A stretch of 64,000 nucleotides of DNA, from assembly GCA_022606425.2 (NCBI GenBank), contig JAHDVF020000240.1:2356001-2420000 (forward strand), written 5' to 3'. The translations under genes and the position numbers were made by a program. The DNA comes from Lepidostoma basale (lineage: Eukaryota > Arthropoda > Insecta > Trichoptera > Lepidostomatidae). Position 1 is the first letter of the stretch, and each line of letters starts with the position of its first letter. The notes under the pieces were generated by a model. The model ran no database searches. It was not told where the DNA came from and saw nothing but the letters and a program-made list of their open reading frames with translations. Below, piece by piece: positions 3,929 through 63,262 of this stretch.

Positions 3929-4128
3929 TCCATTGTTTTGGCCGAAACACTATGACACCTTAACATTTTATACTGTTAAATGAAATAACTTTGTTTTTTG
4001 TATTACAATTTATTTTATTTTAAGCGACAGCTGTTTAGTCATGACATCATCAGGTGTTACAATACTATAAATTGTGATACATAATCAAAGTTATTTAATT
4101 TAACAGTTTAGATTTTTACTATTTGTTG
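3929..4128. repeat. Foldback unit, family alpha
   Basis: It opens with TTGTTTTGGCCGAAACACTATGA. The left arm contains CGACAGCTGTTT and CATCATCAGGTGTTAC, the minus-strand version of the shared CTGATGA / GAA / ACAGCTGT core, with one arm mutated. The opposite flank TTATTTAATTTAACAGTTT at 4108-4128 pairs with the left outer arm. The right copy of the core is missing, so this is an internally deleted unit. Confidence 0.7.
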
Positions 4129-4230
4129 TTTATTGTATCAGCTGCGCCTTTTTAAATATACTAAACATAAAACTAGAGAGACAATCCAGCTAATCTAGTA
4201 AGAATAATATAAAATATTGTGAATAATCAT

Positions 4231-4466
4231 TAAATAAAACGCTGTTTTTTAGCTACTTCCACTTTTGGCTTTATTTCGACAGCGACTGGTTTCGCCAGGT
4301 TCGCTGGCATCGACAGACTGGTCTGTCTGTCTGTCGATGCCGGCGAGCCTGGCAAAACCGGTCGAAATAAAGTCAAAAGTGGAAGTACTTTAAAATCATC
4401 CTTTTATTTCATTATTATTTAAAATGAACTTCCATCGAGAGATTTCAGTAAAATCATTTGATTATT
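4231..4466. repeat. Foldback unit, family beta
   Basis: The arms mirror each other around about 4324: CACTTTTGGCTTTATTTCGACAG on the left and GAAATAAAGTCAAAAGTGG on the right. Both arms have the core: a CTGTCGA box, a GCCAG/CTGGC-type stem, GAA, then ACCGGT (ACCAGT in the left copy). The centre has a small CTGT repeat. Outside the right arm is a one-sided segment ending in TTTCAGTAAAATCATTTGATT. The fixed A-to-T change in the box would disable a hammerhead. Confidence 0.75.
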
Positions 4467-4529
4467 TTAAAATATTGTGTGTAAAAGAAAATTTACACAT
4501 GCAACGTATGAACATACGTCTTGCCCGCG

Positions 4530-4930
4530 CGACAGTATTGAGCTAGCGCATCACTGTTCACTATAATATATCACCGTGAGGCGAGTATTAATAACGCTAT
4601 TCAAGAAGACGTATGATTTTAAAGTTTTACATTAATTGCGTGGCCACAAAAACCAGGTATATTCGACGTTTGGCTCGTAGTTTTCAAGTGTTCTGCTTAA
4701 AGTTAGTCCTCTCACAATTTCCCTCGTGACGGTAGCAACAGGAACGAGCTAGAGCATCACTGGTCATTCAGTAAACATCGCCGTGGGGCGAGTGTTAATA
4801 AAATGTGCTATTCAAGAAGACGTATGATTCTTATAATACAGACTTACATTAATTACGTGGCCACAATAACCAGGTATATTCGACGTTTAGCTCACAACTT
4901 CCAAGTATTTCTACAGTTAGTCCTCTCACA
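4530..4930. repeat. Diverged tandem duplication, about 200-bp unit
   Basis: Two direct copies (about 4530-4715 and 4737-4930) share long blocks: GAGCTAG.GCATCACTG, ATTCAAGAAGACGTATGATT, CAGGTATATTCGACGTTT and AGTTAGTCCTCTCACA. Spacing is constant, with scattered substitutions and small indels. No coding signal is conserved between copies. The unit is not seen elsewhere in the window, so it looks like an old local duplication rather than a dispersed repeat. Confidence 0.8.
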
Positions 4931-5165
4931 GTACAAACAAGTCAAGATTCTCCATCCCAATGGTCGGCTTTGTTATTATTTCTGAGAATTAATTTATGAA
5001 TAACAATTCACACAAATGGAGAGGTTCTTTATACGTAAGTGTGAAAACGGGGAATCAATTCTTCTTTGGTACTCTATCTATGGTACATATAAAGTTCATT
5101 GAAACATTAATCAAATATATGCGGCGCAATAATATAGAAGAACTTTGAAATTGTCGAACAATTAG

Positions 5166-5733
5166 AGCTTTAAAAGTAGTTTTTGGAAACAAGAATTTAT
5201 CAATGAAAGCGAAAATGGCCGTTCACAATGGAGTTCTGGTCCCAACCCTTATGTATGGAAGCGAATCATGGAACTGGCAGAAGAAAGATGAGAGCAGAAT
5301 AAATGCGGTAGAGATTAGGTCCCTAAGACGTATGTGTGGTAGAATGATGTACGACAGAATCTCAAATGCTGATATTAGGAAATAATGTAGAGCGAAAGAA
5401 GGTATTATGAACAAAATTATAAAAGGTTCGCTTCGTTGGTTCGGACATATGGAGCGCATGGGTGAAGAAATAGTGGTTTAAAAAGTATACATTAACGATT
5501 TAAATGGAGTAAGGAGTCGAGGTAGACCGAGAAAAACATGGCATGACCAAATTAATCATATATTTAAGGTTGGTCATGTCAGAAGCCGGACGAATCGACG
5601 GGGGTGTAAGACTCGATGTATGAATGGGGAGGAATCTAGAGAGGTGTGCCAGGATAGAGTGGTGTGGCGGTCCATTCTCTCTGCCTACCCCTGCGGGGAA
5701 ACGGCGTGAAGGTTTGTTGTTGTTGTTGTTGTC
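5166..5733 (+). mobile_element. 5'-truncated RTE-B LINE copy
   Basis: Translation gives KAKMAVHNGVLVPTLMYGSE, the NWQKKDESRINAVE segment, RRMCGRMMYDRISNADIRK, a stop, then GIMNKIIKGSLRWFGHMERM and GRPRKTWHDQIN, ending at YPCGETA. The 3' tail is (GTT)n, unlike the TTAG tail of RTE-A. Nonsense codons (for example TAA at the end of the 60-codon frame near 5385) show that it is dead. The last part of the reverse transcriptase ORF is all that was copied. Confidence 0.9.
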
Positions 5734-6007
5734 GAACATCATGGAGTGACAAAATAAACTCTTCACCCGCTACGACTCGGTGCATTATTTTAAACTGGGA
5801 GAGGACGAGTGTAGTCCGAAACATGTTTGTGAAAAAGTAAAGAAAACGTGTAATAAATAATTATATAAATTTAATAATATGTATTATGTAAATTGTAATA
5901 CATATTTGATGAAAACTTGATTGTGGTTAATTAATACATCTATCTCTATTTTCGATATAGAATTCAATGTTTTAGTTTATGATTAAAATATTTATAATAT
6001 AATATTA

Positions 6008-6465: not shown

Positions 6466-6625
6466 ATATACATTTTCAAAAGGTTCATTATTTGTTCATT
6501 ATTTAAAACGTGTTTTGATCCATTTAATAATTGTCTTATTGAAGGATTAATGCCATAAGTTAGCGTAAAATTAATATTACCTACTCTGAAAAATGACGTT
6601 ACCTTTGATTTTAATTATGGAGGAT

Positions 6626-7549: not shown

Positions 7550-7561
7550 TTATTGCGCACT

Positions 7562-9287: not shown

Positions 9288-9620
9288 TCTCATTGAACAA
9301 TGTTTATTTATTTTTAAACAACCCTAACATTATTTTTTTTAAATCAAACATGTTTCAGACATAGAAGCCCTTCATCAGTGTTGTTATTTTTTTGAATAAT
9401 ATACGTATGCAAAATAAATATTTAAATATGTTTTCATGAATGTGGTAAGTTTTAAAAGAGATTATAAAATAATTATATTTTAAAATATGAAATTAATAAA
9501 AATATTATTTTATATATACAAAAAAATAACAACGCTGATGAAGGGCTTCTGTGTCCGAAACATGTTTATCAAGTTAGTTTTGTTTACAAAGAAATAAACA
9601 TTGTTCAATGAATCCTCAAC
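9288..9620. repeat. Foldback unit, family theta
   Basis: The left arm (9292-9408, starting TCATTGAACAATGTTTATTT) and right arm (9510-9613, ending AAATAAACATTGTTCAATGA) are inverted copies about 100 bp long around an AT-rich centre. Each arm holds the shared core: CTGATGA, a GGGC/GTCC stem, GAA, ACATGT. The right-arm (plus-strand) core near 9535-9565 is better preserved; the left has TTTCAGACA in place of TTTCGGACA. Confidence 0.75.
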
Positions 9621-15749: not shown

Positions 15750-16700
15750 ATTTTGAAATTCCACAGTATTAACGCCTTAAGTTTATCTAAAATTATTTTT
15801 TTTGTTACCAACCCAGCCTAATAAAAAATAATATGAATGAAGATGTTTGTATTCTAGTTGTAAAATTAAATTAATTTATTAGAAAAACTTGTATCGTTTT
15901 TCTAAGTATTATCAATGGTAGCGAGATTCAAACTAGCAGCTGTTTTTATGCCCGAGTTAATGGTGCAGAATAAGTACTTAAAGTAATTATTGTGGATTAA
16001 TATTATACATTGTTAACAATAATTAACAGCTAAGTGATATAAAATTATACTGTTCCTAACACTAACTTCCTCTCTGCATTATCTTCTTCAGACTATCAGA
16101 GTTTATTATAATATTTTATTAATATTTAGTTCCTTTCCATAAATTCAAAAATATTATTTTGTCTGTAAAAAATTTGTTTAAATATATTATTTAAACATTT
16201 TATTATACAGTTCAAAGTGAACTTCAAACAGGAGATTCAGAAAAAAAAACATTGGATATTCAATATTCTATCCATAATTAACTCCCGTTTTTTTTATATG
16301 TTCTATAGTAGTCACAAGATTCGCCATGCTTGTATATTATACAAAATATGCTAGAGCTCCATTATATGTCTTGTATAAGCGGATTATTTTTGGAATTAGA
16401 TAGATCCTTAATTCTAAAGCTGATAAACGCTTACTACCTTCAAAACATATTAAGACAACCATTATATAATTCATAAAAATGAACAAATAAGTGTTTTTAG
16501 TTTATATTGATATTAAAAACCGTTTTATAGAAATTGTTTTATATTTTATATGAGTGCCATAGCATTTTCAAACTGCTACTTACATTTTTACAAATTTAAT
16601 GTTGAGTTTAACATCGTTGTTCAAGAAACAAAAAACTTTTCACATTAGATTTATCACACGATATTGAACGACAAATTTCACTCAGTTAATAAAAATGTAT
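15750..16700. other. AT-rich stretch, no gene
   Basis: No supported frames or repeats. Short A/T-rich runs only. Confidence 0.45.
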
Positions 16701-16960
16701 AGTTAATAAAATGATATATTTTAACTATTCCCACTTTTGTCTTTATTTCAACAGCGACCGGTTTCCCCAGCCTCGCTGGCTTCGGCAGACTGATTTGGTC
16801 AGACCAGTATGTCGATGCCAGTGAGCCTGGCGAAACCGGTCGCTGTCGAAATAAAAACAAAAGTGAAAATAGTTTAAAAAAAAACATCGTTTTATTTAAC
16901 TATTATTTTAAATGAACTTCCAACAATAGATTTCAGTGAAATCATTAGATTATCTTTAAA
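16700..16960. repeat. Foldback unit, family beta
   Basis: Inverted arms CCCACTTTTGTCTTTATTTC and GAAATAAAAACAAAAGTGAA enclose two cores: ACCGGTTTC with a CTGGC/GCCAG stem and a TGTCGA box, on each strand. The right-hand (plus) core at about 16809-16845 is the better one. The one-sided outer tail (ATTTCAGTGAAATCATTAGATT) is as in the 4231 copy. Confidence 0.75.
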
Positions 16961-17079
16961 ATGTTAACAGTATTTAAACTTTTTTATCTAACAAATGCCA
17001 GATTCAATTATCTCTACGATAAATAGGACTGGGCTTGAGGAAACTTTGTTTTGCTCTGCCGTTTTAGTTTATTAAAATA

Positions 17080-17235
17080 TTATTTATTTTTTTTTTTATA
17101 TACTTTATTTACAACAAATTTTTTTTTTTAAATAAATTAAATTAAATATAACACATGTTTCGGACAATTCTGTGCTCCCTCAGCGATATTATAAAGATAT
17201 TCATGATATTATAAAATTAGTATTTTTCTTTTTTA
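17080..17235. repeat. Foldback delta half-unit
   Basis: TTTTTTTATATACTTTATTTACAAC, ACACATGTTTCGGACAATTC, CTCCCTCAGCGATATTATAAAG is the delta left arm, carrying the core on the minus strand. It is immediately followed by a second delta left arm at 17236, so two delta units lie in tandem with the first missing its right arm. Confidence 0.7.
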
Positions 17236-17540
17236 TATACTTTGTATATACAGCACTAACTTTTTTTTAAATTTTAATTAAATATCAGATATGTTTCGGA
17301 CAATACGGTTCTTCCCCGGTGATATTAGAAAGATATTTAAAATATTATAAAATTGTTTACAAATATGATCATTTTTATCTTTATAATATAACTGAGGAAG
17401 GACCGGGTTGTCCGAAACATTTTGATATTTGATTTTTTTAAATATTAGTGTTGTATATACAAAGTACGTAAAAAATAAAAAGACAAGTAAAAAATCTACA
17501 ATATAGAGTATGGCGAACATAGAAGAAATATTCAAATATT
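17236..17540. repeat. Foldback unit, family delta
   Basis: The left arm has TACTTTGTATATACAGCACT and ATATGTTTCGGACAATACGG. The inverted right arm has ACTGAGGAAGGACCGGGTTG, TCCGAAACATTTTG and TTGTATATACAAAGTA. The plus-strand core reads a CTGAGGA box, a GGAC stem arm, GTCC, GAA, ACATT. The one-sided tail ends GTATGGCGAACATAGAAGA, which is also seen at 18530 and 53690. Confidence 0.75.
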
Positions 17541-17965
17541 ATTTTATTTCCAATAGGTATGATTTACATCATGGTTTTAGCAACCCTGTGCCATCTTAAT
17601 TTAAAAGCAATATTTTCGTATAGAATGTCTATTGATAATAATAATTTGTTGAGTATACGTATGATATTCTTTTGTGTGTCTTGCCGATTCAACAATAGCA
17701 AAAACACATTATTCACTAAACGAGCTAATGGACGAAGTTCTTTACATAACAATGTTGCTGGGTATCTATAAAATAAATAATACGTATTGTTCCAAAATAC
17801 ATTTTGCTCAACCGTTTCATACTAATGCATAGTTATAAAGAGAATACTTATGTTTTATTTATCTTTTTTTTTATATAATTTGTATTTACAACTCTTAAAT
17901 TAAAAAGAAAAATTACATAGACTTGTTTCGGACAAACAGTTCTTTTTCAGTGATACATATCGCAC

Positions 17966-18220
17966 GTTGAAAACAAAAGTGACACTATACAAAAATCTCA
18001 ATTTTTCAGTACGGTCATTTAAAGTTCTTGTGAGGTCAATAACTTGACTGTGAGTAGAAATATATCTAATGTTGTTGTTTTATATATTAGTTTAGATATT
18101 ATTCTATCAGAATCTAGTTGATTTTAATTAGGTTAATAAGCAGACAAAACTTTAAATGACCGTACTGAAAAATTTAAATTTTTGTATAGTGTCACTTTAG
18201 TTTTCAACGTGCGATATTAT
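17966..18220. mobile_element. MITE with about 70-bp terminal inverted repeats, nested in delta
   Basis: ATCGCACGTTGAAAAC... GACACTATACAAAAAT... TTTCAGTACGGTCATTTAAAG at 17968-18032 is repeated inverted at 18155-18219 (CTTTAAATGACCGTACTGAAA ... GTTTTCAACGTGCGAT), near perfect. The centre of about 120 bp has no ORF. Flanks suggest a very short duplication (AT or ATA), which is too AT-rich to be sure of. Confidence 0.75.
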
Positions 18221-18410
18221 AAAGATATGTTTTTTTAAATATTATAAAAAATTTTACAAGATCTGACAGATGTTATAAAGATTTATTTTGGAAAGTTTAT
18301 TCAAACTAAATACTTATGATTAAATAATGTTTATTTAAACTTTATAACATCTGTCAGATCATGTTAACAATTTTATGATATTTTTTAAAAATGTATCTTT
18401 ATAATATGTA

Positions 18411-18445
18411 TCACTGAAGAAGGACTGTTTGTCCGAAACATGCCT
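18411..18445 (+). ncRNA. Hammerhead-like motif, delta right arm
   Basis: A CTGAAGA box at 18414-18420 is followed by one extra A, a GGAC/GTCC stem with a five-base loop, GAA at 18435-18437 and ACATG. Core boxes match the hammerhead consensus (CTGANGA and GAA), but the extra base before stem II departs from it. Stem III is imperfect (ACATGC) and stem I is weak, so catalysis is doubtful in this copy. Confidence 0.4.
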
Positions 18446-18599
18446 ATGTAATTTTATTTTTTTAATGTAAGTATTATATATACAAAGTTTATAAAAAGTA
18501 AAAAAAGAAACAAACCTACATAACAACACAAAGTATGGCGTATATAAAAGAAAAAAATTCTTATGCATATAAATATTTTACAAACATGACAAATAATGA

Positions 18600-21732: not shown

Positions 21733-22005
21733 CCCACTGTTTTGGCCGAAACACTGTGATACTTTAATATTATTTGTTTAAATTTTAAACTCTATTATTT
21801 TACATATCACAATTTATTTATATGAATTTGTCGCAAAAGCTGTTTTACAGCTATGTTGTCATCATTAGGTTTTTACCTACAACCAACCTTCCAACAAACA
21901 ACTCAGCTGTAAGTTGGTAGGTAGGCGAAACAGCTGTCACGACAAACTCTTAAAAATAAATTATGATACGTACAATCACCGTTTCAAATTTAAATATTTG
22001 AAATG
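21733..22005. repeat. Foldback unit, family alpha
   Basis: TGTTTTGGCCGAAACACTGTGA opens the unit. The left core is decayed (GCTGTTTTACAGCTATGTTGT, CATCATTAGG) and the right core reads GGCGAAACAGCTGTCACGACA at 21931-21951. Between the arms lies an extra small repeat with AACTCAGCTGTAAGTTGGTAGG. The right outer arm is AAATAAATTATGATACGTACA. Confidence 0.65.
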
Positions 22006-29249: not shown

Positions 29250-29405
29250 TTTAATAACACACTTTTACAAGTTTATTTTTTAAAACCAACCGGTTTCGCT
29301 CCTGCCGGAGCTTCGTCAGGGTTACAAAATAAAGTTTATTTTGTAAACCTGACGAAACTCCGGGGGTTGGATTTAACAAACAAAAAAATGGTGAAGTGTA
29401 ACAAC
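29250..29405. repeat. Foldback unit, family kappa
   Basis: Inverted arms CACTTTTACAAGTTTATTTTTTAA and AAACAAAAAAATGGTGAAGTG flank a centre with TTACAAAATAAAGTTTATTTTGTAA. The left arm holds a fully paired hammerhead-like core (29284-29323, minus). The right arm has CCTGACGAAACTCCGGGGGTTGG, in which the GAA box is deleted. Confidence 0.75.
29284..29323 (-). ncRNA. Hammerhead-like motif, kappa
   Basis: Read on the minus strand: stem I strand AACC, box CTGACGA, one extra A, stem II GCTCC/GGAGC closed by GGCA, GAA, stem III palindrome ACCGGT, T at the cleavage position, then GGTT, which pairs fully with AACC. All invariant hammerhead bases are in place except for the inserted base ahead of stem II. 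Stem III has no loop, so folding would need a dimer, as proposed for PLE hammerheads. Confidence 0.55.
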
Positions 29406-30776: not shown

Positions 30777-30990
30777 CTCAAGATTTATTTAATTGAATTT
30801 GTCACGACAGCTGTTTTGCCAACCTATGTTGGCATCATCAGGTGTTACAAACAATTTGTTTGTAAAACCTGATGATGTCAACAGAGCTGTCGTAATAAAC
30901 TCGTTTAAATAAATTGATTCGTAAAATCAGTGTTTTAAATATAAACATTCTAAAATGTTGAAGTATCATAGTGTTTTGGTCAAAATTATG
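30777..30990. repeat. Foldback unit, family alpha
   Basis: Left core: ACGACAGCTGTTTTGCC, TTGGCATCATCAGGTGTTAC. Centre: AACAATTTGTTTGT. Right: AACCTGATGATGTCAAC, then GAGCTGTCGTAATAAAC, where the GAA box and much of stem II are lost. The tail AATGTTGAAGTATCATAGTG, TTTTGGTCAAAATTATG is one-sided, as in other alpha units. Confidence 0.75.
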
Positions 30991-34954: not shown

Positions 34955-35078
34955 AAATAATAATAATTATAATAATAATGTTTTAGACAGGCGAAACATG
35001 GCATTTACATAAATTATTAAAAAACTTATAGAAAACAAATATTTTTTTACGTTTTTTTACACAACGTTTTTCTACTCA
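34955..35078 (+). repeat. Foldback gamma, right half
   Basis: ATAATGTTTTAGACAGGCG, GAAACATGGCATTTACATAAA, AAACTTATAGAAAACAAATA: a gamma right arm. A weaker left trace (CGCTACATTTGATACC near 34888) may be its partner. Confidence 0.55.
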
Positions 35079-35114
35079 ACATTTATAATTTTAATAATGT
35101 ACTTAACTATTTAA

Positions 35115-35400
35115 ATAAAATATTTTATTTTGTCGTGATAGCTGTTTCGCTAACCGACGTTAGCATCGTCAGGTCTTACAATCAACTTGTCGGTTACATC
35201 TACAGTTATCAGTTATCAACAGTTATCAATCTTACATCAAAAGTTAATTGTAAGACCTGACGATGCTAACATTGGTTAGCGAAACCGTTGTCACGACAAA
35301 ATATAATCAATTGTTATATTTATAACAAAGCCTTTTTATTTTAAAAGTTAATAATGTAGAAAAATTAAAGTTTTTTGACCAAAACAATAGATTTTTAATA
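35115..35400. repeat. Foldback unit, family alpha, long centre
   Basis: Left: TTTTGTCGTGATAGCTGTTTCG, CGTTAGCATCGTCAGG. Right: CCTGACGATGCTAACATTGG, TTAGCGAAACCGTTGTCACGAC. Stem II pairs GCTAAC with GTTAGC. The centre holds a small repeat of CAGTTATCA. The tail TTTTTTGACCAAAACAATAG is the decayed one-sided end. Confidence 0.75.
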
Positions 35401-35955: not shown

Positions 35956-36083
35956 TAGGAAATTGAAAATAACTTTATAACTGTTAAAGCAAAAACTTTG
36001 TTTTATATCATAATTGTATTTATTTTACGACAGCTGTTTCATCAACCAATGTTGACATCATCAGATGTTACAAAATTGTATAT
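35956..36083. repeat. Foldback alpha, left half
   Basis: TAACTGTTAAAGCAAAAACTTTG, TTTTACGACAGCTGTTTCATCAACC, TTGACATCATCAGATGTTAC. The core is on the minus strand with a GTTGATGAAACAGCTGTCG arrangement. The right arm is replaced by the tandem array that follows. Confidence 0.7.
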
Positions 36084-36370: not shown

Positions 36371-36520
36371 TATTAAAAAAATATTAAAAACACGACATGT
36401 TTTGGAGGATACCCCCATCTTCAAGTGTAAAAATATGCTAAAAACTAAACAAAGAAAGTTTAATATAAAAACGCATAAATTCGATACAATAATACAAATT
36501 TAAAATTATCTGGGCTGTTT
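36371..36520. repeat. Foldback eta, left half
   Basis: CACGACATGTTTTGGAGGAT, ACCCCCATCTTCAAGTGTAAAAA, CTAAAAACTAAACAAAGAAAG is the eta left arm of 60660-60760 with substitutions in the core. No right arm is present. Confidence 0.7.
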
Positions 36521-40052: not shown

Positions 40053-41502
40053 ATTTATTGTTCACCATATTAAATAATTAATACGAATGAAAACCTCAGT
40101 TTTCTAGAAGATTAATTATAACAACAACAACAACAAACCATCACGCCGTTTCCCCGCAGGGGTAGGCAGAGAGAATGGACCGCTACACTACTCTATCCTG
40201 GCAAACCTCTCTAGCTTCCTCCACATTCATATAACGAGTCATACACGCACGTCGATTCCTCCGACTTCTAACATGACCAACCTTTAAAATTTGATTAATT
40301 TGGTCATGCCATGTTTTCCTCGGTCTGCCTCGACTTCGTACCCCATTTAAATCATTGACGTATACTTTCTTAACCATTCTTTCTCCATCCATGCGTTCCA
40401 TATGTCCGAACCAACGCAGCGATCCTTTCATAATTTTGTTCATTATACCTTCTTCCGCTCTACATTCCTTTCTTATATCAGCATTTGAGATTCTGTCGTA
40501 TATCGTTCTACCACACATACGTCTTAGGGACCTCATCTCTACCGCATTTATTCTACTCTCATCCTTCTTCTGCCAGTTCCATGCTTCGTTTCCATACATT
40601 AGGGTTGGGACCAGAACTCCATTGTGAACGGCCGTTTTCGCTTTCATTGATAAATTCTTGTTTCCAATAACTATTTTTAAAGCTCCATTTACTTTGTTAC
40701 CCGCACCAACCCTTCTTTCGACGTCACTATCCGTTCGGGCATCTGCTGTGAACATGCTACCTAAATACACAAATTCCCTCACCTGTTCCAAGTTCTCTTC
40801 GTTCACACTTGTATTACAAACTGTCATTTGCTCTTCCCTTTCGAAAACGATCATCTTTGACTTTCCGACATTCATCATTAAATCATTTGACTTGCATACC
40901 TCATACATTCTCGACACCAAGACTTGTAATTCTTCCGCACTATCCGCAACGAGAACGGCATCGTCCGCGTAAAGCAGACAGTTTACAGACAGATCACTCA
41001 TCTTAGCACCAGCATTTATACCTTTAAGTTATTTCATACACTTGTCCATATACAGATTGAACAACCATGGAGACATCACGCAGCCCTGCTTAACACCCTT
41101 CGTGATATCAAACCATGGCGTGATGTCTCCATTTACCCTAACACTGGCAGTGCTCCCTTCGTAGAGAGAAGCAACCGCCTGTATCAGTTTTGTGCTCACT
41201 CCGTATTCGGACAAGATTGACCACAGTTTATCTCTGTTCACTCGATCATAGGCTTTTTGCAAATCGACAAACGCACAGAAAAGCTAACGGTTTTTGGCCA
41301 TAAACTTCATTTAATTATATTTTATGGAAATAACATGTTTCACCCTTCTAAGGCATTATCATTATCATTAGAAAATGCCTTAGAAGGGCGAAACATGTCA
41401 TTCCCATAAAATATAATAAAACTTCTAGAAAACTGACATTTTCATTCGTATTAATTATATAATATGGAGTTTTACACCATTGTTCAAGAAACAATAAATA
41501 CA
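40053..41502. repeat. Foldback unit gamma, split by RTE-B
   Basis: Gamma left arm at 40053-40120 (ATTAATACGAATGAAAACCTC, TTTTCTAGAAG) is continued at 41311 (ATTATATTTTATGGAAATAACATG, TTTCACCCTTCTAAGGCATT) with its inverted right arm (TGCCTTAGAAGGGCG, GAAACATGTCATTCCCATAAA, CTTCTAGAAAACTGACATTT) and the tail ending TTCAAGAAACAATAAATA. The RTE-B copy occupies the gap. This is the best-preserved gamma right arm. Confidence 0.8.
40121..41310 (-). mobile_element. RTE-B copy, 1.19 kb, with 9-bp target duplication
   Basis: TTAATTATA flanks it at 40112-40120 and 41311-41319. The minus strand encodes the reverse transcriptase from FCAFVDL-QKAYDRVNRDKLW through VKQGCVMSPWLFNLYMDKCMK, LLYADDAVLVAD, MMNVGKSKMIVF and VYLGSMFTAD to YPCGETA and a TTG-type tail. 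It is the longest RTE-B here. Three nonsense codons are seen: before LFCAFV, after DKCMK, and TGG to TAG near 40183. It is therefore dead but otherwise in one frame (40183-41001). Confidence 0.9.
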
Positions 41503-42500: not shown

Positions 42501-42524
42501 TGGTATCATATTTTTTTTATTTTT

Positions 42525-42566
42525 CGCGACAGCTGTTTCGTCAACCGATGTTGACATCATCAGGTG
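42525..42566 (-). ncRNA. Hammerhead-like motif, alpha left arm
   Basis: Minus strand: a CAC flank, box CTGATGA, one extra T, stem II GTCAAC/GTTGAC with a four-base ATCG loop, GAA, palindrome ACAGCTGT, then C, giving the classic GTC cleavage triplet, then GCG. Stem I pairs two of three positions here; the right arm has GTG, which pairs all three. Core bases are intact apart from the extra base before stem II. Confidence 0.5.
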
Positions 42567-42783
42567 TTACTATTATATATTTTTTTCAAATGTAAAAATA
42601 ATGTTAACTATTGAGAAAAAAAAATTATAAAACGATAATTAATTTTCACATTTGAAAAAAATATTGTCACACCTGATGATTTCATCATCGGTTGACGAAA
42701 CAGCTGTCGTGAAAAATATAAAAATAATTAAAAATTGTTATTCAATGCACATCGTTTTATAATTTGGCACTTATTAATGTTGA

Positions 42784-43208: not shown

Positions 43209-43308
43209 AATGTTGAAATATCATAGTGTTTCGGCCAAAACAATGGACTATTTATTAAATAAGTATTTACATATTCAAGTGCTTATTCGTGATGACCATA
43301 CAAATATG

Positions 43309-43671: not shown

Positions 43672-43815
43672 TATTTTTTAGTTGATTGACCTTACGATGA
43701 CGATGACGAAACAGCTGTTGCGACAATATATAATAAATTGTGATATTTATAGTTTAATTTAAACAGTGAATAATGTTGAAATATCAAAGTGTTTCCACTA
43801 AAACAATGGATTGTC
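43672..43815. repeat. Foldback alpha, right half
   Basis: GATGACGATGACGAAACAGCTG, TTGCGACAATATATAATAAATTG, then AATGTTGAAATATCAAAGTG, ACTAAAACAATGGATTG. A right arm and one-sided tail without a left arm; the stem II strand is damaged. Confidence 0.7.
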
Positions 43816-43837: not shown

Positions 43838-44245
43838 TTTATTTAATTTAACTACGTCTTCTTCAATTTCTTGTACCATTCACTATGTTAACTTACACCT
43901 ATTTATTGTTTCTTGAACAATGATGTAAAACTTCATATTAAATAATTAATACGAATGAAAACGGCAGATGTCTAGAAGTTTTATAATGCCTTAGAAGGGC
44001 GAAACATGTCATTCCCATAAAAATAATAAAACTTCTAGAAAACTGACGTTTTCATTCGTATTAACTTATACCTTTTTCGATAGTTTCTTAATTTATTCTT
44101 TCCATCTGTCCAAACCATTTCAATGAACATTTCATTATCTTTTGTTCACAACGCTTTTATTTGCACTATTTTCTCTTATTACATTCATATTTGGCACTCC
44201 TTCGTTCACTTATTAATCACACATTCGTCTAAAAAAATCTCAATT
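43838..44245 (-). mobile_element. RTE-A fragment split by a gamma foldback
   Basis: 43838-43900 and 44061-44245 are consecutive pieces of one minus-strand RTE-A copy. The first covers a DIV.NGTRN-like and KVD-like region (TTCTTGTACCATTCACTATGT); the second covers ERMDK-like, MFIEMVWTDGK-like and MSEYEC-like segments. Both are highly decayed. The gamma unit sits exactly between, with TTAACTTACACCT / TTAACTTATACCT at its edges. Confidence 0.65.
43901..44060. repeat. Foldback unit gamma with target duplication
   Basis: The complete short form: ATTTATTGTTTCTTGAACAATG tail, AATTAATACGAATGAAAACGG, left arm shortened by a deletion of its core, then TAATGCCTTAGAAGGGCG, GAAACATGTCATTCCC, CTTCTAGAAAACTGACG, TTTTCATTCGTATTAA. 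It is flanked by a 9-13 bp duplication in the host RTE-A. Confidence 0.8.
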
Positions 44246-44865: not shown

Positions 44866-44884
44866 ATGATGAATATTTTTTTTT

Positions 44885-45112
44885 AATCACTGTTAATTCA
44901 AAAACTTTGTTTTATATCACAAATTGTATTTATTTTACTTTACGACAGCTGTTTCATCAACCAATGTTGACATCATCAGGTGTTATAAAAATATTTATCA
45001 AATGTCAAATTTTCGTAATTTTTCGAATCTTTGTGTATTTGTAAAATAAAACAAAGTTTTTGAATTAACAGTTATAAAATGTTAAAATATCATAGTGTTT
45101 CTGCCAAAACAA
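44885..45112. repeat. Foldback unit alpha, right core deleted
   Basis: AACTTTGTTTTATATCACAAATTG, TTTACGACAGCTGTTTCATCAACC, TTGACATCATCAGGTGTTAT, then AAACAAAGTTTTTGAATTAACAG and tail AATGTTAAAATATCATAGTG, TTTCTGCCAAAACAAT. Outer arms pair; the right-hand core has been lost. Confidence 0.75.
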
Positions 45113-45589
45113 TAAAATATTTTTTTGTAATTCCATATCGTAATAATTCAGATGAATGACTTAATTGTTGGATCCACGAATGCTCAATTATCTACCTATA
45201 CACCCACACTATAACCCGATTACAACGGCACCTATCAAACAGAAATTTCTCGAAAGTAAGACATCGCCGCATCTATTTTGCGATCGAATAATTAAGTAGC
45301 AATTAATAAGTGTAATTTTCCGCAATCTAACCACTGATAAAGCCCAAATCGTATTACCAATAATGGGGGTTCTCTCCGTGCGATGTACCAACGCGCAGCT
45401 CCAGCCTCCAATCACACAATCAATCAATGATCACTTTTCTTTCTTATTTAATTATTTCGTTTCTACAACTGTGATGTCTTCATCACTCAACGTAGCACCT
45501 TTCGTAACACCGAGACCGACGAATGAAGAATGAAGAGCCGATGACTCATTGATGGATTTATCTTCAAGTCAATTCACTTAAGATTTTTT
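45113..45589. other. Unique patch, no gene recognised
   Basis: AT-rich, then a balanced-composition piece (45230-45420). A 72-codon minus frame at 45209-45427 has no domain. Confidence 0.35.
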
Positions 45590-45659: not shown

Positions 45660-45920
45660 AATTGTTTTGGCCGAAACACTATGATACTACAACATTATTT
45701 ACTGTTAAAATTTATAACAGTGTTATGTTATCAGAGTTAAATTTATTCACTTTTTGTGTGTCGCGACAGCTGTTTCGCAAACCCGATGTTGGCATCATCA
45801 GGTGTTACTAATAACTGATGATGCCAACATAGTTAAGCGAAACAGCTGTCTGACACTCAAAAAATGAATGATAATTTTTTTAATAATTTGTTAAAAACAG
45901 CTAATAATTTAATTTTTAAA
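45660..45920. repeat. Foldback unit, family alpha
   Basis: TTGTTTTGGCCGAAACACTATGA opens it. Left core GCGACAGCTGTTTCGC, GATGTTGGCATCATCAGGTG; centre about 8 bp (TACTAATA); right core ACTGATGATGCCAACAT, AGCGAAACAGCTGTCTGAC. The cores are nearly back to back. Here the long tail is on the left, so units occur in both orientations. Confidence 0.8.
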
Positions 45921-45953
45921 CATTGAAAAGAAGTTATCACTTGGTGGTTTGAA

Positions 45954-46186
45954 ATATTTAAAATTAGAATTAAACACTTTCATAACGCTGTATAAAACCA
46001 CTTTATTTTGAGTCAGGAGCGCCAACCGGTTTCACTCTGTAACGAGCTTCGTCAGGGCTATACACAAACAGTTTGTGTATAGCCCTGCGAAGCTTGTTAC
46101 AGAGTGAAACCGGTTGGCGCTCCCGACTCAAAATAAAGTGGTTTTATACAACGTTTTCAAAGTGTTTAATTCTAATTTTAAATTTA
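45954..46186. repeat. Foldback unit lambda, near-perfect 230-bp palindrome
   Basis: The arms mirror around 46069/46070 with only a few mismatches (for example ATAACGCTGTATAAAACC against GGTTTTATACAACGTTTTCA). The centre is CTATACACAAACAGTTTGTGTATAG. The cores use ACCGGT. Arms this similar imply recent origin or conversion between the arms. No one-sided tail is obvious. Confidence 0.88.
46021..46058 (-). ncRNA. Hammerhead-like motif, lambda left arm
   Basis: Minus strand: flank GCC, box CTGACGA, one extra A, stem II GCTC/GAGT (one G-T wobble) with a GTTACA loop, GAA, palindrome ACCGGT, T, then GGC, which pairs with GCC. The right arm has lost one base in the box (CTGCGA), so only the left copy keeps the core. 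Confidence 0.5.
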
Positions 46187-48102: not shown

Positions 48103-48573
48103 TTTGTAATTAATATTGTTTATAATGAAATCCCCCATGTTATATCTGACTTTCATAACAACTTCTGTCATCCCGGGATTGAAAAAACATTTAGAACCCT
48201 CTCGCAAACATTTTATTGGAGCAATATGCGTCGCACTATCAAACAATTCATAAAAACTTGCGACACCTGCAAGGCCTATAAGCATAGCACGCAGTCCCCT
48301 TTAGGTTTAATGACGGTGCCTAAACGCCTTTCTAAACCCCTCGTCTCCTTGTCTGCAGACCTCGTAGGGCCACTCCCGATGTCCAATCATCGCTTCTGTC
48401 ACATTCTGACAGTAGTAGACAACTTTTCAAAATTTGTTTGGGCATTTCCCCTTAGGACAGCCAACTCCAAAACTGTAATTAAATTACTCGAGGAGAAAAT
48501 ATTTCTGCCTTACTCTGTTCCCCGTACGCTTATTATCGACAACGGAAGTCAATTTGTCTCCAAGGAGTTCCGT
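48103..48573 (+). pseudogene. Truncated gypsy integrase
   Basis: The frame has the zinc-binding module HNNFCHPG ... CDTCKAYK (HHCC), then SADLVGPLP (first catalytic D) and IIDNGSQFVSKEF (second D). The third catalytic residue, E, is missing because the sequence leaves the family at about 48573. The region between primer site and integrase is under 110 bp, so gag, protease, reverse transcriptase and RNase H are deleted. It cannot be functional. Confidence 0.85.
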
Positions 48574-48593
48574 AAGTTCACTGAGAGAACCTG

Positions 48594-48714
48594 GAGGATC
48601 TGTTGGTGGACGTGCGCTGCTCATCATATGCAGATTTCAAAAAAGCCGCACAAGACAGGTAAGAATGGAAGAGAAGAATAGAGGAAATTGCTGCAAACTA
48701 ACCCCAGGATTGAA
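48594..48714 (+). mobile_element. Possible LINE C-terminal fragment fused to integrase
   Basis: Directly after the integrase break, one frame reads DLLVDVRCSSYADFKKAAQD, a stop, then EWKRRIEEIAAN. This resembles the AAQDR..WKR end of insect LINEs. It may mark the insertion that truncated the integrase. The match is short. Confidence 0.35.
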
Positions 48715-51324: not shown

Positions 51325-51432
51325 TTTATATTGCCCTGATGAAGCTTTGGGTCTAAGCGAAACTAGTTTGCGTCAAATACTCGTTTAATATAAATACCAC
51401 GATTAAAATTAAAAGTGTTTGTTTTATTTAAT
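51325..51432 (+). repeat. Foldback mu, right half with hammerhead-like core
   Basis: Plus: box CTGATGA, one extra A, stem II GCTT/AAGC, GAA, palindrome ACTAGT, T. The flanking stem I is only partly paired. The arm continues GCGTCAAATACTCG. No left arm. It is a distinct family because stem III is ACTAGT. Confidence 0.55.
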
Positions 51433-52059: not shown

Positions 52060-52515
52060 AAATGATTTTACTGAAATCTCTTGATGGAAGTCCATTTTAA
52101 ATAACAATTAAATAAAACGATTAATACGAATTAAAACGTTAGTTTTCAATTGGTTTTATTATATTGATTGGGAATGGCATATTTCGCTCTTCTAAGGCAT
52201 TATCAAATGTATTTGTATTAATTATTATTTGATAATGCCTTAGAAGGGCGAAACATGTCATTTCCATCAAATATAATAAAACTTCTAGAAAACTAACGAC
52301 TTCATTCGTACTAATTATTTAATATGGAGTTTCACATCATTGTTCAACAAACAATAAATAAATAAAACGATTTTTTTACCTACTTCCAATTTGGTATTTA
52401 TTTTGACAACTACCAGTTTCGCTAGGCTCGCTGTTGAAATAAAGACGAACGTGAAAGTAGTTAAAAAACATCGATTTATTTATAATAATTATTATTTAAA
52501 TTTTAGTCGACTTTT
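52060..52515. repeat. Foldback unit beta, split by a gamma unit
   Basis: TGATTTTACTGAAATCTCTTGATGG at 52064 (beta outer tail) and the beta arm at 52370-52510 (TTTGACAACTACCAGTTTCGC, GAAATAAAGACGAACGTG) are separated by gamma (52121-52358). TAAATAAAACGA is at both junctions. The beta core is itself internally deleted. Confidence 0.78.
52121..52358. repeat. Foldback unit gamma with 12-bp target duplication
   Basis: TAAATAAAACGA at 52109-52120 and 52359-52370 delimits the unit at 238 bp. The short end starts TTAATACGAATTAAAACG; the long end finishes CATTGTTCAACAAACAATAAA. The right core is TGATAATGCCTTAGAAGGGC, GAAACATGTC. This copy best defines gamma termini: one end stops at the arm, the other carries a 45-bp extra tail. 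Confidence 0.85.
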
Positions 52516-53059: not shown

Positions 53060-53690
53060 TTTTTTTTTAAATATGTATATTATATATTTGTTTTTTACTT
53101 TTTTATATACTTTGTTTACAACACGAACTTAAAAAATAAATAATAAAATTAAATATCAGACATGTTTTGGACAACCCGGTCCTTCCTCAGTGATATTATA
53201 AAGATATTTAATGTATTATAAAATTAAAACTGTTAATAAATAAACGTTTTTTGTATCACAATTGTATTTTATTTTACGCGCCAGCTGTTTCATCGACCAA
53301 TGTTGACATCATCAGGTGTTACAATAATATTATTGTAACACCTGATGATGTCAATATTGGTTGATGAAACAGCTGTCGCGTAAAATAAAATACAAAAAAC
53401 AAAGTTTATTCATTAAAAAATTTTAAATGTTAAGGTATCATAGTGTTTCGGCCAAAACAATGGACTATTTTATTATATTATAAAATTGTTTACAAAAATG
53501 ATCAGTTTTGACAGATGTCATAAAGATTTATTAATAACATCTGTCAAAACTGATCATATTTGTAAACAATTTTATAATATCTTTATTACATCACTGAGGA
53601 AGGACCGAGTTCTCCGAAACATGTCAAGTTAGTGTTGTAAACAAAGTATATAAAAAGGAAAACGACAAATAAAACATCTAGAACACAAAG
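53060..53690. repeat. Foldback unit delta, split by an alpha unit
   Basis: Delta left arm at 53060-53225 (TTTTTATATACTTTGTTTACAAC, AGACATGTTTTGGACAACCC, CTTCCTCAGTGATATT). Right arm at 53476-53650 (ATCACTGAGGAAGGACCGAG, TTCTCCGAAACATGTCAAG), with the central pair GATCAGTTTTGACAGATGTC and its inverse. Alpha occupies 53226-53475. The tail ends AAGGATGGCGAACATAGAATA. Confidence 0.8.
53226..53475. repeat. Foldback unit alpha with 12-bp target duplication
   Basis: TATTATAAAATT lies at 53214-53225 and 53476-53487, delimiting 250 bp. Short end: AAAACTGTTAATAAATAAACG. Long end: AATGTTAAGGTATCATAGTG, TTTCGGCCAAAACAATGG. The cores are TTGATGAAACAGCTGTCGCG (right) and GCGCCAGCTGTTTCATCGACC (left) around TGTTACAATAATATTATTGTAACA. 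This copy defines the alpha unit: an inverted pair plus a one-sided 50-bp tail. Confidence 0.87.
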
Positions 53691-54424: not shown

Positions 54425-54666
54425 AGATATTCAATAATTAATACGAATAAAAACGGCTGTTTTCTAGTTTTATCATATTTTAAGTGAATGACTTGTTTGG
54501 CATGTCTTAAGCATTATCAAATGTCTGTCATTTTATAATGCCTAGACAGGCCAAACATGTTATTCACATAAAATATGATTAAACTTCTAGAAAACAGACG
54601 TTTTCATTCGTATTTATTATTGAATATGGAGTTTCACATCATTATTCAAGAACAAATTAACAGAGA
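54425..54666. repeat. Foldback unit, family gamma
   Basis: TTAATACGAATAAAAACGGC, GTTTTCTAGTTTTATCATA, GACTTGTTTGGCATGTC, TTATCAAATGTCTGTCATTTTATAA, TGCCTAGACAGGCCAAACATG, CTTCTAGAAAACAGACG, TTTCATTCGTATTTATTATTG, tail GGAGTTTCACATCATTATTC. The GAA box has become CAA in both arms (GGCCAAACATG), so the putative catalytic box is lost while the stem still pairs. Confidence 0.82.
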
Positions 54667-56385: not shown

Positions 56386-56454
56386 GTTTATTTTAATATC
56401 ATATTGAGGAAAACTTACACTTTCTTGAAGTTTTATTTCAATTCATTCTTTGTA

Positions 56455-60062: not shown

Positions 60063-60069
60063 TATAAGT

Positions 60070-60240: not shown

Positions 60241-60645
60241 TATTCTCAAATTCAAGCTGCCATCATTGTTCAAGCAACTATATATAATATATACTGAATT
60301 TAATACGTTTAGTATATAAATCATTGTCTCGAACTACAATGTGCCACAAGCTACTCGTATTTTAATGAACCGACGAAATTTTCATACCAATTTTCGAGTT
60401 GCGCAACCCCCGACTTACTTGTTCTGTATGCTGTGTATTAGGTCCGCATCACAGTGTCGAGTATTTTTATCCTGCCTCCGATCTCCGAGAATGGTTAACA
60501 ATAAATTTTAATTGGGGACGATTGTAAGGTAGGCCGTATGTACCTACCCGCCGATGAAGAAATAAATTAGGGGGAAATTGTAGACAATCTAAAAAATCAA
60601 CTCATAGAACGCTTATACTGTAGAATTCCATAGTGATATACTTAG
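60241..60645. other. No gene recognised
   Basis: Single-copy; a short patch (60390-60560) is GC-richer. Nothing assigned. Confidence 0.35.
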
Positions 60646-61010
60646 GAAATGCAAAATAACTTTGTTTAATCCACAAAACACTACATGTTTCGGAGGATAC
60701 CTCCATCTTCAGGTGTAAAAATATAGTAAAAACTAAACATACAAAGACTTATATTAAACTCGCATTTTAAAATAGATACAATAATTTAAATTTAAAAATT
60801 AACCTTGACTATTTGTTATAATTGCCTGCTTATCAATTAATTTCTGTATTTAAATTATTGTATCGAATTTTATATTCGTCTTTCTTTGTTTAGTTTTTAT
60901 TATATTTTTAAACCTAAAGACCGAAATCCTCTATCCTCCGAAACATGTCGTATTTTTTTTTTAATATTTTGTGGATTAAACAAAGTTATTTTCAATTTCC
61001 TAATCTAAAA
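60646..61010. repeat. Foldback unit, family eta
   Basis: Outer ends AAATAACTTTGTTTAATCCAC (60656) and GTGGATTAAACAAAGTTATTTTC (60971) are inverted. Arms carry the core, then AAAACTAAACATACAAAGAC against CTTTCTTTGTTTAGTTTTT. The left core (60678-60716) is perfect; the right is mutated (CTAAAGACC, CTCCGAAACATGTCG). The half-unit at 36371 and the tandem array at 36084 derive from this family. Confidence 0.82.
60678..60716 (-). ncRNA. Best hammerhead-like motif, eta left arm
   Basis: Minus strand: stem I ACAC, box CTGAAGA, one extra T, stem II GGAGG/CCTCC with a TAT loop, GAA, palindrome ACATGT, A at the cleavage position (a GTA triplet), then GTGT, fully pairing with ACAC. Both conserved boxes are exact and all three helices can form in 39 bases. 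The inserted base between box and stem II is the only departure. As stem III has no loop, a dimer would be needed. Confidence 0.6.
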
Positions 61011-61262
61011 AATGCTCTTAAAAATACTATATCTAGATAAAAATGATGTCTTTATTAAATATTCGTCTTCACGCTTTGCTGTAGATTCATATTAAATAAA
61101 AATTTTTTTTTCAACAGTGAATTCCAACAATAATTAATTAAATGTTCAATTAACATAATTATATGTTTGATAATCTTTTCTAAATAATGCAAAAGTTATC
61201 CAATTAAATTTATTACATTCAGTTTAAATTTTACACCAAAAATGGATGAGAACCATCCGAAA

Positions 61263-61806
61263 CATATTTTATTTATTTTTATTTTATTTTATTATTGAGG
61301 GTAACAAACAGCAATTACAGTATATGAATATAAACACACAGAGACAACAAAACAAGGCCAATTACATGCTACCACAAATATTATAAAACAACTGACATAA
61401 GGTTAATATATAAGAAGAATAATTAAAGATGAAATATAATTTTAAAAGGCAAAAAAAAAGAAAAAAATAGAGTAACTAGTTTCATTCGCCCCGAAGGGTT
61501 GCTCCAACCATTTTTTTAAAATCACTTTCATTAAGATAGAACACATCGATGTTATTAAAACACTTATTGTACATGTCGCACGTCCGGTACTCCGCCGCAC
61601 TCTGAGCGTAGTTAGTCCGATAAGCAGGAAGGTGGAATATTTGGTTCGCAGTGTGTCTTGTGCGAAGCATAAGGGTATTCAGTAATAATTTACTAAGAAG
61701 TTCGGAGTTGTCTATTTTGAAGTGAATGATTTTATGAAGCAACATCATATCATTAATTGTTCGCCTATTTTCGAGAGATTCCCAGGAATAAAAATTAAGG
61801 GCAGAA
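61263..61806 (-). mobile_element. 5'-truncated jockey-like LINE-J
   Basis: Minus frame: LNFYSWESLENRRTINDMML, LHKIIHFKIDNSELLSKLLL, RTRHTANQIFHLPAYRTNYA, and FNNIDVFYLNESDFKK to the stop. This LHKII..KID / TR...F..P..RTNY wording is the usual C-terminus of jockey-superfamily proteins. A 3' UTR of about 210 bp ends in (TAAAA)n-type repeats at 61263-61300. It is the only LINE here with an A-rich tail rather than TTAG, TTG or GAA. Confidence 0.78.
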
Positions 61807-61954
61807 TTATAATTTGTAAATTATAATATGTGTGAATAGTATAATAATGTATTTTACATGATTTTCTAGTGTTTTAAATAAATTAATTTCAATTATTAAC
61901 CATGTAAATATTGAATAATTGCGTAAATATTCACGGTTGGCAGCAATATGTTTT

Positions 61955-62160
61955 GTGTGATATTGGGTAACAACGTGTGATTTCTCCATCTAAACCGACG
62001 TTTCCGAGATCGTTGCAGTCTCCATCTTCAAGATAATGTGGTCGTGGTAACTTTTTTTACCACCACCACATTACCCTGAAGATGGAGAATGCAACGATTT
62101 CCGAAACGTTGGTCGAGAAGGAGAAATCACACGTTGTTACCCAAAATCTAATAAAACACA
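61955..62160. repeat. Foldback unit, family zeta
   Basis: The outer ends TTGGGTAACAACGTGTGATT and AATCACACGTTGTTACCCAA are exact inverse copies. The arms carry ACGTTTCCGAGATCGTTGCA and TGCAACGATTTCCGAAACGT cores, and the centre is a TGGTGGTGG/CCACCACCA type. Both cores are largely kept. The 28960 half-unit is a relative. Confidence 0.85.
62073..62113 (+). ncRNA. Hammerhead-like motif, zeta right arm
   Basis: Flank ACC, box CTGAAGA, one extra T, stem II GGAGA/TTTCC with a nine-base loop, GAA at 62103-62105, palindrome ACGT, T, then GGT pairing with ACC. Both conserved boxes are exact; stem III is only four bases. The left arm has AAGATGGAGA preceded by ATCTTG instead of CTGA, so it is damaged. 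Confidence 0.5.
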
Positions 62161-63120
62161 TGTTAATATTGCATTTAACAATTAAAAATTATATAAATAA
62201 ACTTATGGTGCAGATATAATAAAACTCTATCATAGAAAAATTATTTAAAATATTTATTTTTTAATTCATAATTCAGAAAAGCATCGTTTTAAAAATTATA
62301 ATTCCCATAAATATGCATTCTATCACTTATAATTTTTGGGGGAAAAAACTTATTTAATATTCTTATATAATTCATTTTAAAACAAACGGTAAAAATCCTG
62401 TTCATAAAATATACTTTGTATTATTTTTATATGAGTAAATTATAAATCATTATTTTATTTATTTACTTTGTATTTGCGTTTTGGTCATTTCTCCTTTATA
62501 ATTTAGTTTTTGCTACCCACTCATTGGACAAGACAATTACAGGGGCCGACTTGCGCAAGTTGCCTCAGGCTTTATGGCTACCTGGAAATTAATTACTAAC
62601 CACGACGTAGAAAGGCTCAACTAACTAGAATGATTTTTAAACGGATATTTGAATGATTTATCTCTTTTCACAGAGTGCAGCGAAACTGTCATTTTAATGC
62701 TTAATTTTAGAGATTTGTAGTTAATCATGGGATCGGGTGGGTAAAAATGTTACATCAGCATTTTATTTAACGACACTTAGCAATAATAATTCTGTTTATT
62801 GTAGTTTGCATCATTGGCTGACTTTGCTCGACTCGAGCACCATTTGTTTTATTTATCATAATTATTTACAACCGGGCAATTACGAATCAGAAGCAAGCAT
62901 TAATCATTTAATATTTATTTATTTGATTGACTTTTATTATAAAACGGATTCTTTCTATTTTGTATGTTTGTGAAGAAATGCAATGTGGACTAAGAAGGTG
63001 CCTCCATGTTACTAAAACCATAAAATCTGATGCCCCTGGAAACGAAACAATGTCGGACAAACTTTCCACCACATGGCAAGAGATAGAGGAGAGAAAAAAC
63101 TGGAAGCAGTAAGATATTTT
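62161..63120. other. No gene recognised
   Basis: AT-rich, single-copy here. Two plus-strand frames (62737-62973 and 62927-63112) have no domain. The second contains a Lys/Glu-rich end (ATWQEIEERKNWKQ) that does not match the known LINE tails with confidence. Confidence 0.35.
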
Positions 63121-63124
63121 TCAG

Positions 63125-63262
63125 AGCTATCTCTCGTGTAATCGCAGCCACTTTGTGTTGTGGATTGACATTTGAATATATTTTTTAAAATGTTGTATTA
63201 TTACAATATTTTTTCACGAACATGTTTCGGGCTACAGACTTCATTCTTCAGCGTAAAAATTG
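63125..63262 (-). repeat. Foldback nu, left half with hammerhead-like core
   Basis: CACTTTGTGTTGTGGATTGAC starts the arm. The minus-strand core has a TACG flank, box CTGAAGA, one extra A, a poor stem II, GAA, palindrome ACATGT, T, then CGTG, which pairs with TACG through three pairs and a wobble. Stem II is decayed. No right arm. Confidence 0.6.

Follow-up and report, generated by a model that had tools for sequence, protein, structure and literature searches.

How do many short inverted repeats, otherwise dissimilar in sequence, come to carry the same ribozyme-like core at the same place? The question arises from a stretch of 64,000 nucleotides (nt) of the trichopteran Lepidostoma basale (contig JAHDVF020000240.1 of assembly GCA_022606425.2, positions 2,356,001 to 2,420,000 of the forward strand; hereafter the window), in which a preliminary description had noted foldbacks whose arms each read outward from the centre as a CTGANGA-like box, one extra base, a short stem-loop, GAA and a palindrome. 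Our analysis finds this layout to be real, and the foldbacks are very probably short insertions made by Penelope-like elements (PLEs), joined head to head. We observe covariation in the core, a head-to-head layout of the arms, unequal ends, target-site duplications (TSDs) and the same arms beside open reading frames (ORFs) with a GIY-YIG domain.

The hammerhead-like core

We scanned the window with the pattern CTGANGA-N10..22-GAAAC, which carries no stem requirement. The scan returned 22 matches against 0.33 expected under an order-1 Markov model (maximum of 3 in 100 runs); one of them, on the plus strand at 10079, is without a stem and looks like chance. A stricter scan, demanding a gap of 1, a 4-bp stem and a palindrome, found 11 sites compared with a mean of 0.007 over 300 shuffles. 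We sort the cores into seven groups (F1 to F7), a single site left ungrouped (63251) and two groups whose box has decayed (F8 and F9), which replaces the ten or more unrelated families first proposed; those families bore Greek letters, came without coordinates and could not be matched one to one with F1–F9. A palindrome stands directly after GAA in 16 of the 22 core sites, compared with 42 of the 177 GAAAC sites window-wide (177 includes those 22). As had been claimed, it keeps its place while differing between groups: ACAGCTGT in F1, ACCGGT in F2 and F7, ACATGT in F3 and F4, ACGT in F5 and ACTAGT in F6.

Stem II, which was not selected for, pairs in 75 of 88 cells when exactly one base is left after A9 (permutation mean 45.7, s.d. 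4.9) and in 29, 37 and 22 of 88 cells at gaps of 0, 2 and 3, respectively, confirming the single extra base. The second pair of this stem is GC in 8 cases, CG in 7 and TA in 6, so that stem II covaries. For stem I, which had gone unmentioned before, the hammerhead register has pairs in 37 of 48 cells versus 7–18 in the four adjacent registers (counted over the 16 palindrome-bearing sites; 5000 shuffles never reached 37). Among 20 hand-listed cores the corresponding figures are 38 of 60 in register and 13–25 elsewhere, and with one core for each of 11 subgroups P is about 0.005–0.013. At one further locus (L062), an F2a-like arm has CATC/GATG in stem I versus AACC/GGTT in the window copy.

As in the type I hammerhead, stem I is open to both ends and stem III closes. 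Stem III exists only as the palindrome, and its pairing would therefore be between two molecules. The consensus C3 U4 G5 A6 N7 G8 A9 ... G12 A13 A14 A15.1-U16.1 H17 is present in the 22 sites, which were selected on it, and is departed from in F7, where A6 is changed, and in L004, a foldback elsewhere in the genome described below. The cleavage position H17 is C, T or A, and G in none of the 20 cores (nor in any of the 16 palindrome sites). Stem II does not follow A9 directly as it does in type I: of the 18 sites whose gap is 0–2, 17 have one inserted base between the two.

A structure score over nine trimmed cores was 0.817 versus 0.249 for shuffled sequences and at most 0.123 when the structure was slid, the slid control flattering the score since the structure was itself read from such sequences. 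A custom covariance model (R1), trained on 9 cores, recovers the held-out groups F4 (E 8e-4) and F6 (E 0.022), misses F7 (E 9.5) and scores the 63251 site at only E 0.42. The Rfam hammerhead models gave no match in the window up to E 5, a negative that says little since they also gave none up to E 1 at a phage site (L001) where all three helices and the extra base are visible by eye. Rfam matches of other kinds, on the window and on one foldback, were microRNA-like and other chance matches from long hairpins and were discarded. On the sequence evidence, a hammerhead fold is strongly supported. The helices, all three of them, fit type I with a tiny palindromic stem III, as do the H17 rule and the invariant core, in agreement with the preliminary description; the cores are putative ribozymes.

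The phage site belongs to a side observation. A scan with the F5-type pattern returned three IMG/VR contigs (L001:11735-11779, L002:3688-3733 and L003:2709-2745), reading as phage or bacterial sequence, with the same core and the same extra T; by eye, L001 and L002 hold complete type I hammerheads with stem III closed and the same one-base insertion. R1 scores highest at these three sites, which a similar pattern had already picked. Pattern scans of viral contigs for the F1, F2 and F3 types, and of prokaryote contigs for F1, found nothing.

The inserted base is A in F2, F3 and F6 and T in F1, F4, F5 and F7, where A9-T-G consequently reads ATG. The frame from this ATG runs for 34 codons in F4, covering most of the distance to the end of the tail, for 45 codons in one F5 arm and 11 in the other, and for 2–27 codons in F1 and F1b, with one of 47. 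Of 21 cores, 14 have AATAAA on the core strand 30–120 nt beyond C3, and 2 have it within the 90 nt upstream; as controls, TTTATT occurs in the same downstream stretch in 8 of 21, and AATAAA in 18% of random 90-nt windows. A possible polyadenylation signal may thus be common to most groups.

Foldback ends, target duplications and Penelope-like elements

The arms outside the core had been described as unrelated. This holds for their sequence, since a comparison of 11 outward arms gave no between-group match longer than 11 nt, and fails for their anatomy: the arms end at near-constant distances from the core. Measured from A9, short ends lie at 82–94 nt and long ends at 109–136 nt in F1, F2b, F3, F4 and F7, as well as in F5 and F1b, whose TSDs are weak.

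We tested the ends of 14 window foldbacks, allowing one arm to be 28–59 nt longer than the other, with 400 random draws as the null. Six of the 14 have one arm 36–53 nt longer together with flush direct repeats of 9–12 bp, five of them at 11 or 12 bp (P 0.005 for at least 11 bp, 0.015 for at least 9 bp). No TSD flush with symmetric arms exceeds 8 bp in the window foldbacks. Twelve foldback intervals meant as core-free controls gave TSDs of 13 bp (F9), 11 bp (the F1 copy at 44980 again), 9 bp and 8 bp, the rest 6 bp or none, in a set that was not clean, several intervals having turned out to be F7, F9, F3 or F1 copies.

The clearest arrangement is an F1 foldback at 53226..53475 (cores with C3 at 53315 on the minus and 53342 on the plus strand, 49-nt tail on the right), flanked by the TSD TATTATAAAATT at 53214-53225 and 53476-53487. 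It lies inside, and splits, an F3 foldback at 53154..53630, whose cores occupy 53154-53195 (minus) and 53589-53630 (plus). This nesting makes the empty site of the F1 copy readable: removing 53226-53475 and one repeat copy restores the alignment to an intact F3 arm except for a 9-nt gap. An F4 foldback at 60598..61001 (C3 60712 on the minus strand; its right core has decayed and its 44-nt tail is on the left) is flanked by AATCTAAAAAAT at 60586-60597 and 61002-61013, and an F7 foldback at 4222..4467 (C3 4316 minus and 4331 plus, 42-nt tail on the right), whose arm is also found on PLE copies, by TAAAATATTGTG at 4210-4221 and 4468-4479. Two 11-bp TSDs flank an F3 element at 17086..17533, with two tandem minus-strand cores, one plus-strand core (C3 17392) and its tail on the right (AAATATTATTT), and an F1 element at 44883..45115, with a core in one arm only (C3 44979, minus) and its tail on the right (AATATTTTTTT). 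A 9-bp TSD, AATTTAATT (P 0.015), flanks an F2b foldback at 45915..46180 with C3 at 46055 (minus), a plus-strand core lacking A6 and a 41-nt tail on the left.

Independent checks on the unequal-end geometry come from L004 and from PLE loci, both found by searching the 769-Mb assembly. The Rfam hammerhead model RF00163 gave one match among the 73 of 94,533 candidates that were scored, within the foldback L004. Its arms are 172 nt long, its stem III is ACACGTGT, its TSD measures 11 bp and its tail 38 nt, and the ends lie at 100 and 139 nt from A9.

A search for GIY-YIG gave at least 62 matches at E 0.001 or better among the 150 of 541 candidates scored, and 30 were taken as loci. An F7 arm lies 3' of the GIY-YIG match on the same strand in 17 of the 30, each time 608–658 nt from the locus centre (two of the 17 duplicate others, C1139 and C1549 having two matches each; L024 has a second F7 arm at 1268 nt), and an F4 arm does so in 7 of the 30. 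In 20 wider windows, 14 of them at the same places, the 3'-side arm was F4 in 10, F7 in 1 and F2a in 1. At L035, a frame of 758 amino acids, stop to stop, with both the reverse transcriptase (RT) domain RVT_1 and GIY-YIG, lies between two F7 arms, the long arm being on the 3' side of the ORF. At L037, two shortened ORFs stand head to head with 1136-nt arms that are 100% identical, flanked by F7, their frames holding both RT and GIY-YIG or one of them; L037 is the long version of what the window foldbacks show short. The Penelope link suggested in the preliminary description is thereby upheld, GIY-YIG ORFs (with RT where checked) carrying the same arms on their 3' side, and its picture of separate families of hammerhead-derived foldbacks gives way to one of PLE insertion products.

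The same geometry recurs at the PLE loci. F7 head-to-head pairs were found at 20 loci, or 16 distinct places (C1139 and C1549 appear three times each; C236 and C742 may still be duplicates), and all 16 combine one long and one short arm, the nearest pair being counted at L011 and L024, which hold extra F7 arms (one L024 combination is long/long). TSDs measure 11–14 bp in 8 of these pairs and 8–9 bp in 3, and one is a simple TA run; of 500 random end pairs, none reached 11 bp and 1% reached 8 bp. Thus inverted pseudo-long terminal repeats (pseudo-LTRs) with a single tail, as in PLEs, are found in all 16 F7 pairs and, with TSD support, in the six window foldbacks, and short TSDs of variable length in the same six and in 8 of the 16 pairs. 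As a separate observation, an F6 foldback with three F6 cores (L055:4440-4660) lies near a GIY-YIG ORF with F4 arms, so that foldbacks of different groups occur close together.

Origin of the foldbacks

The most plausible reading of the short foldbacks is that they are PLE insertions whose two complementary DNAs (cDNAs) both ended early. Each arm would be the 3' part of a PLE pseudo-LTR, namely a minimal type I hammerhead with a palindromic stem III of 4–8 nt and one base after A9, followed by roughly 80–140 nt and ending where reverse transcription began. The PLE enzyme would prime on both cut target strands, using either of two internal start sites that lie downstream of the hammerhead (about 82–94 and 109–136 nt from A9), copying would run towards the RNA 5' end, and the two cDNAs would be joined head to head. 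If both stop early, a foldback with outward-reading hammerheads would result; if at least one of them continues, the product would be a head-to-head element that bears an ORF. For a purified PLE, both target strands are reported to be cut and extended, and RT to start at two internal sites, the main one 111–118 nt into the ORF (PMC11167929). Unequal ends are what these two-strand, two-start findings predict, if the sides are primed separately and the cDNAs stop independently. We infer priming on both strands and independent early stops, along with ribozyme activity and cleavage as dimers through stem III.

Several observations weigh against this reading. The window itself yielded no recognisable PLE ORF (Pfam, run on 122 of its 142 frames with 72 or more amino acids, gave no GIY-YIG), and RT together with GIY-YIG was found at L035 and L037 instead. 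Ties to PLE ORFs were found for F7 and F4 and, at one locus, for F2a, and for none of F1, F3, F5 and F6; where F1 and F6 arms lie close to GIY-YIG, at L009, L021 and L022, they may have been inserted separately. Eight of the 14 window foldbacks are without a direct repeat of at least 9 bp (two have 8 bp, three 7 bp and three none), and among the 16 F7 pairs 4 show no TSD or one of 7 bp. We turned to the unequal-end geometry after an initial look, which makes the window TSD test partly post hoc, and arm ends were set by hand for F2a and for the F1 copies at 4054, 44980, 45808 and 53328. Two F1 foldbacks, at 42618 (49 and 99 nt) and 45808 (62 and 112 nt), fall outside the usual end distances. 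Of the 17 F7 loci, 7 have the long arm on the 3' side and 10 the short one, so that neither start is tied to one side of the ORF. The reading does not account for the position of the centre, which lies about 7–23 nt upstream of C3 (half the C3-C3 distance) in seven foldbacks (45808, F7, 53328, 30855, F2a, F2b and F5) and 43–100 nt in the remaining ones.

The core has its own difficulties. The F7 core reads CTGTCGA, also on the F7-bearing PLE copies inspected. L004 has the divergent box CTCGAAGA and is missed by R1, and the Rfam alignment misplaces its 5' half, putting the CUGA part 72 nt away from the box; L004 thus supports the end geometry more than the core. Folding gave a divided answer: the monomer optimum holds stem II in 6 of 10 cores and the dimer optimum stem III in 6 of 10, while stem I appears in the monomer optimum of 1 of 10.

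Among other explanations, one keeps the PLE origin and replaces two-strand priming by self-priming, in which a single PLE template or cDNA would double back on itself at a palindromic sequence and be copied, producing the inverted repeat within one molecule. We consider this unlikely, though it has been proposed for the Penelope elements of Adineta vaga (PMC3846280) and would suit both the palindromic foldback centres, for example at 53328 and 46070, and the 1136-nt arms of L037 at 100% identity. A copied arm should, however, share the end of the other arm, and all 16 F7 pairs and the TSD-flanked window copies have unequal ends, an objection limited by the fact that later loss of one end could mimic this.

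A second possibility, which we judge rather improbable, concerns function: the motif would not be a ribozyme but would serve PLE RNA as a signal for binding or priming, its shape staying hammerhead-like. F7 retains the shape despite the changed A6, and with purified PLE protein, hammerhead mutants are reported to be without effect on insertion in vitro, and cleavage to need protein (PMC11167929). On the other hand, the groups other than F7 have exact type I helices, the H17 rule and the invariant core. A bolder and quite improbable extension of the PLE reading is that the palindromic stem III may serve integration, and not cleavage alone, by pairing two template RNAs for a PLE protein dimer, one for each side of the target cut, with one short and one long start. 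A hammerhead acting as such a dimer-linkage signal would explain both head-to-head insertions and the persistence of the fold where core bases have changed, as in F7. The insertion of hammerhead mutants in vitro and the predicted dimer of the PLE protein (PMC11167929) are compatible with this idea and are no test of it.

It is very improbable that the foldbacks are metazoan retrozymes, small elements spreading through circular RNAs made by hammerheads: the type I core would fit, as would one tandem array of F3 at 17070-17354 with a 136-bp period, whereas retrozymes are described as direct tandem repeats (PMC7229834), and the units here, apart from that array, stand head to head with arms that belong to PLEs. 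Finally, miniature inverted-repeat transposable elements (non-autonomous DNA transposons, here with terminal inverted repeats that happen to hold the motif) share the small size, the inverted repeats and the lack of an ORF and are nevertheless hardly credible, as they should have fixed-length TSDs flush with symmetric repeats, where nothing above 8 bp was found, and as the TSDs of variable length (9–14 bp), the one-sided tail, the three-helix covariation and the arms common to RT/GIY-YIG elements all speak against them, the PLE link refuting them unless it is captured flanking DNA.

Further copies in the window and known systems

The remaining copies are less well delimited. An F1 element at 3919..4108 has a degenerate core (C3 4053, minus), its tail on the left and an 8-bp candidate TSD, TAGATTTT (P 0.037), and candidate TSDs of only 7 bp accompany the F5 foldback at 61946..62161 (C3 62031 minus and 62076 plus, stem III ACGT) and the F1b foldback at 35067..35364 (C3 35172 minus and 35257 plus). 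Further F1 foldbacks lie at 42512..42724 (C3 42563 minus and 42673 plus), at 45760..45851 (C3 45801 minus and 45815 plus, a spacing of only 14 nt) and, weakly, at 30801..30907 (cores 30801-30846 minus and 30864-30907 plus; E 0.047 and 0.24). No TSD was found for the F3a foldback at 9290..9611 (C3 9378 minus and 9535 plus), the F2a foldback at 29283..29370 (C3 29319 minus, plus-strand core decayed) or a second F7-like foldback at 16682..16915, whose box reads ATGTCGA. The F3c foldback at 17915..18449 has cores at 17915-17955 (minus, E 0.35) and 18409-18449 (plus). Single cores are an F1 core at 36024..36069 (minus, E 0.11), a weak F4-like core at 36389..36429 (minus, E 0.54), the F6 core at 51331..51373 (plus, stem III ACTAGT) and the ungrouped core at 63232..63256 (minus, C3 63251), with a weak stem II, stem III ACATGT and, by eye, an 8-bp stem I (E 0.42). 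An F9 foldback with a decayed box lies at 52122..52358 (35-nt tail on the right, 13-bp TSD TAAATAAAACGAT); the F9 intervals 41310-41421, 43946-44064, 52112-52323 and 54427-54627 share the GAAACATGT half, the CTGANGA box having decayed. Reading F9 as a U3-A8 version of C3-G8 worked by eye in one copy and not in the others, and was dropped.

The F1 tail (around CATAGTGTTTCGGCCAAAACAATGG) occurs at 8 places, outnumbering the well-preserved F1 foldbacks: 3930-3966, 21738-21767, 30963-30985, 43219-43246, 43782-43809, 45079-45113, 45661-45687 and 53427-53463. An AT-rich tandem array with units of 12–62 bp occupies 36201-36354, beside repeats of AACTTTGTTTAATCCAC, a motif also present in the F4 arms. 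Pfam recognised RT in 3 of the 122 frames and an integrase in 1; the intervals 26006-28552 (plus), 37241-37711 (minus), 40186-41028 (minus) and 48103-48678 (plus) hold a long RT frame, remnants of it and, separately, a fragment of an integrase with H2C2 and rve domains. Among named relatives, the best for the RT frame come from Lepidoptera (Parnassius, Cydia) and from a beetle.

The cited literature does not settle how PLEs reach their head-to-head arrangement, and the role of their hammerheads is called "still a mystery" in a review (PMC7761336). Here, one end geometry, measured from the ribozyme, is common to several lineages of one genome, and the target duplications can be read. This makes both questions countable or assayable, through end positions, the short and long arm of each insertion and the importance of the palindrome, and it suggests that some of the many dispersed minimal hammerheads of animal genomes are short PLE insertions. 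The titles and abstract openings searched, which cover journals in part and are weak evidence of absence, contained no description of ORF-less PLE foldbacks with two hammerheads.

The cores resemble the minimal type I PLE hammerheads (Cervera and de la Pena 2014; Lunse et al. 2017; as cited in PMC7761336, PMC7229834 and PMC6466107), which have little or no helix III, lie in PLE pseudo-LTRs and are thought to cleave as dimers; they differ, as far as the citing papers allow comparison, in standing in ORF-less head-to-head pairs. The Penelope insertions of Adineta vaga share the inverted pseudo-LTRs, head to head with a tail on one, the junction palindrome, TSDs of 8–10 bp and solo pseudo-LTRs, whereas they carry ORFs or captured DNA and no hammerhead is mentioned in the accessible part of that report (PMC3846280); here the arms can be as short as the ribozyme plus its tail. 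Poseidon of Anolis likewise has a hammerhead at the ORF start and two internal RT starts with the tail between them (PMC11167929), unlike our ends, which lie at their own two distances from A9, and our ORF-start codon, which occurs in some groups only. In Aedes aegypti, a palindromic stem III was likewise proposed to pair between two ribozymes, and the sections available mention no foldback context (PMC3088659). Metazoan retrozymes share the type I hammerhead in small non-autonomous elements, in tandem where ours are head to head (PMC7229834). Minimal hammerheads and head-to-head terminal repeats are already described for PLEs, and what is added here is the end geometry common to several lineages.

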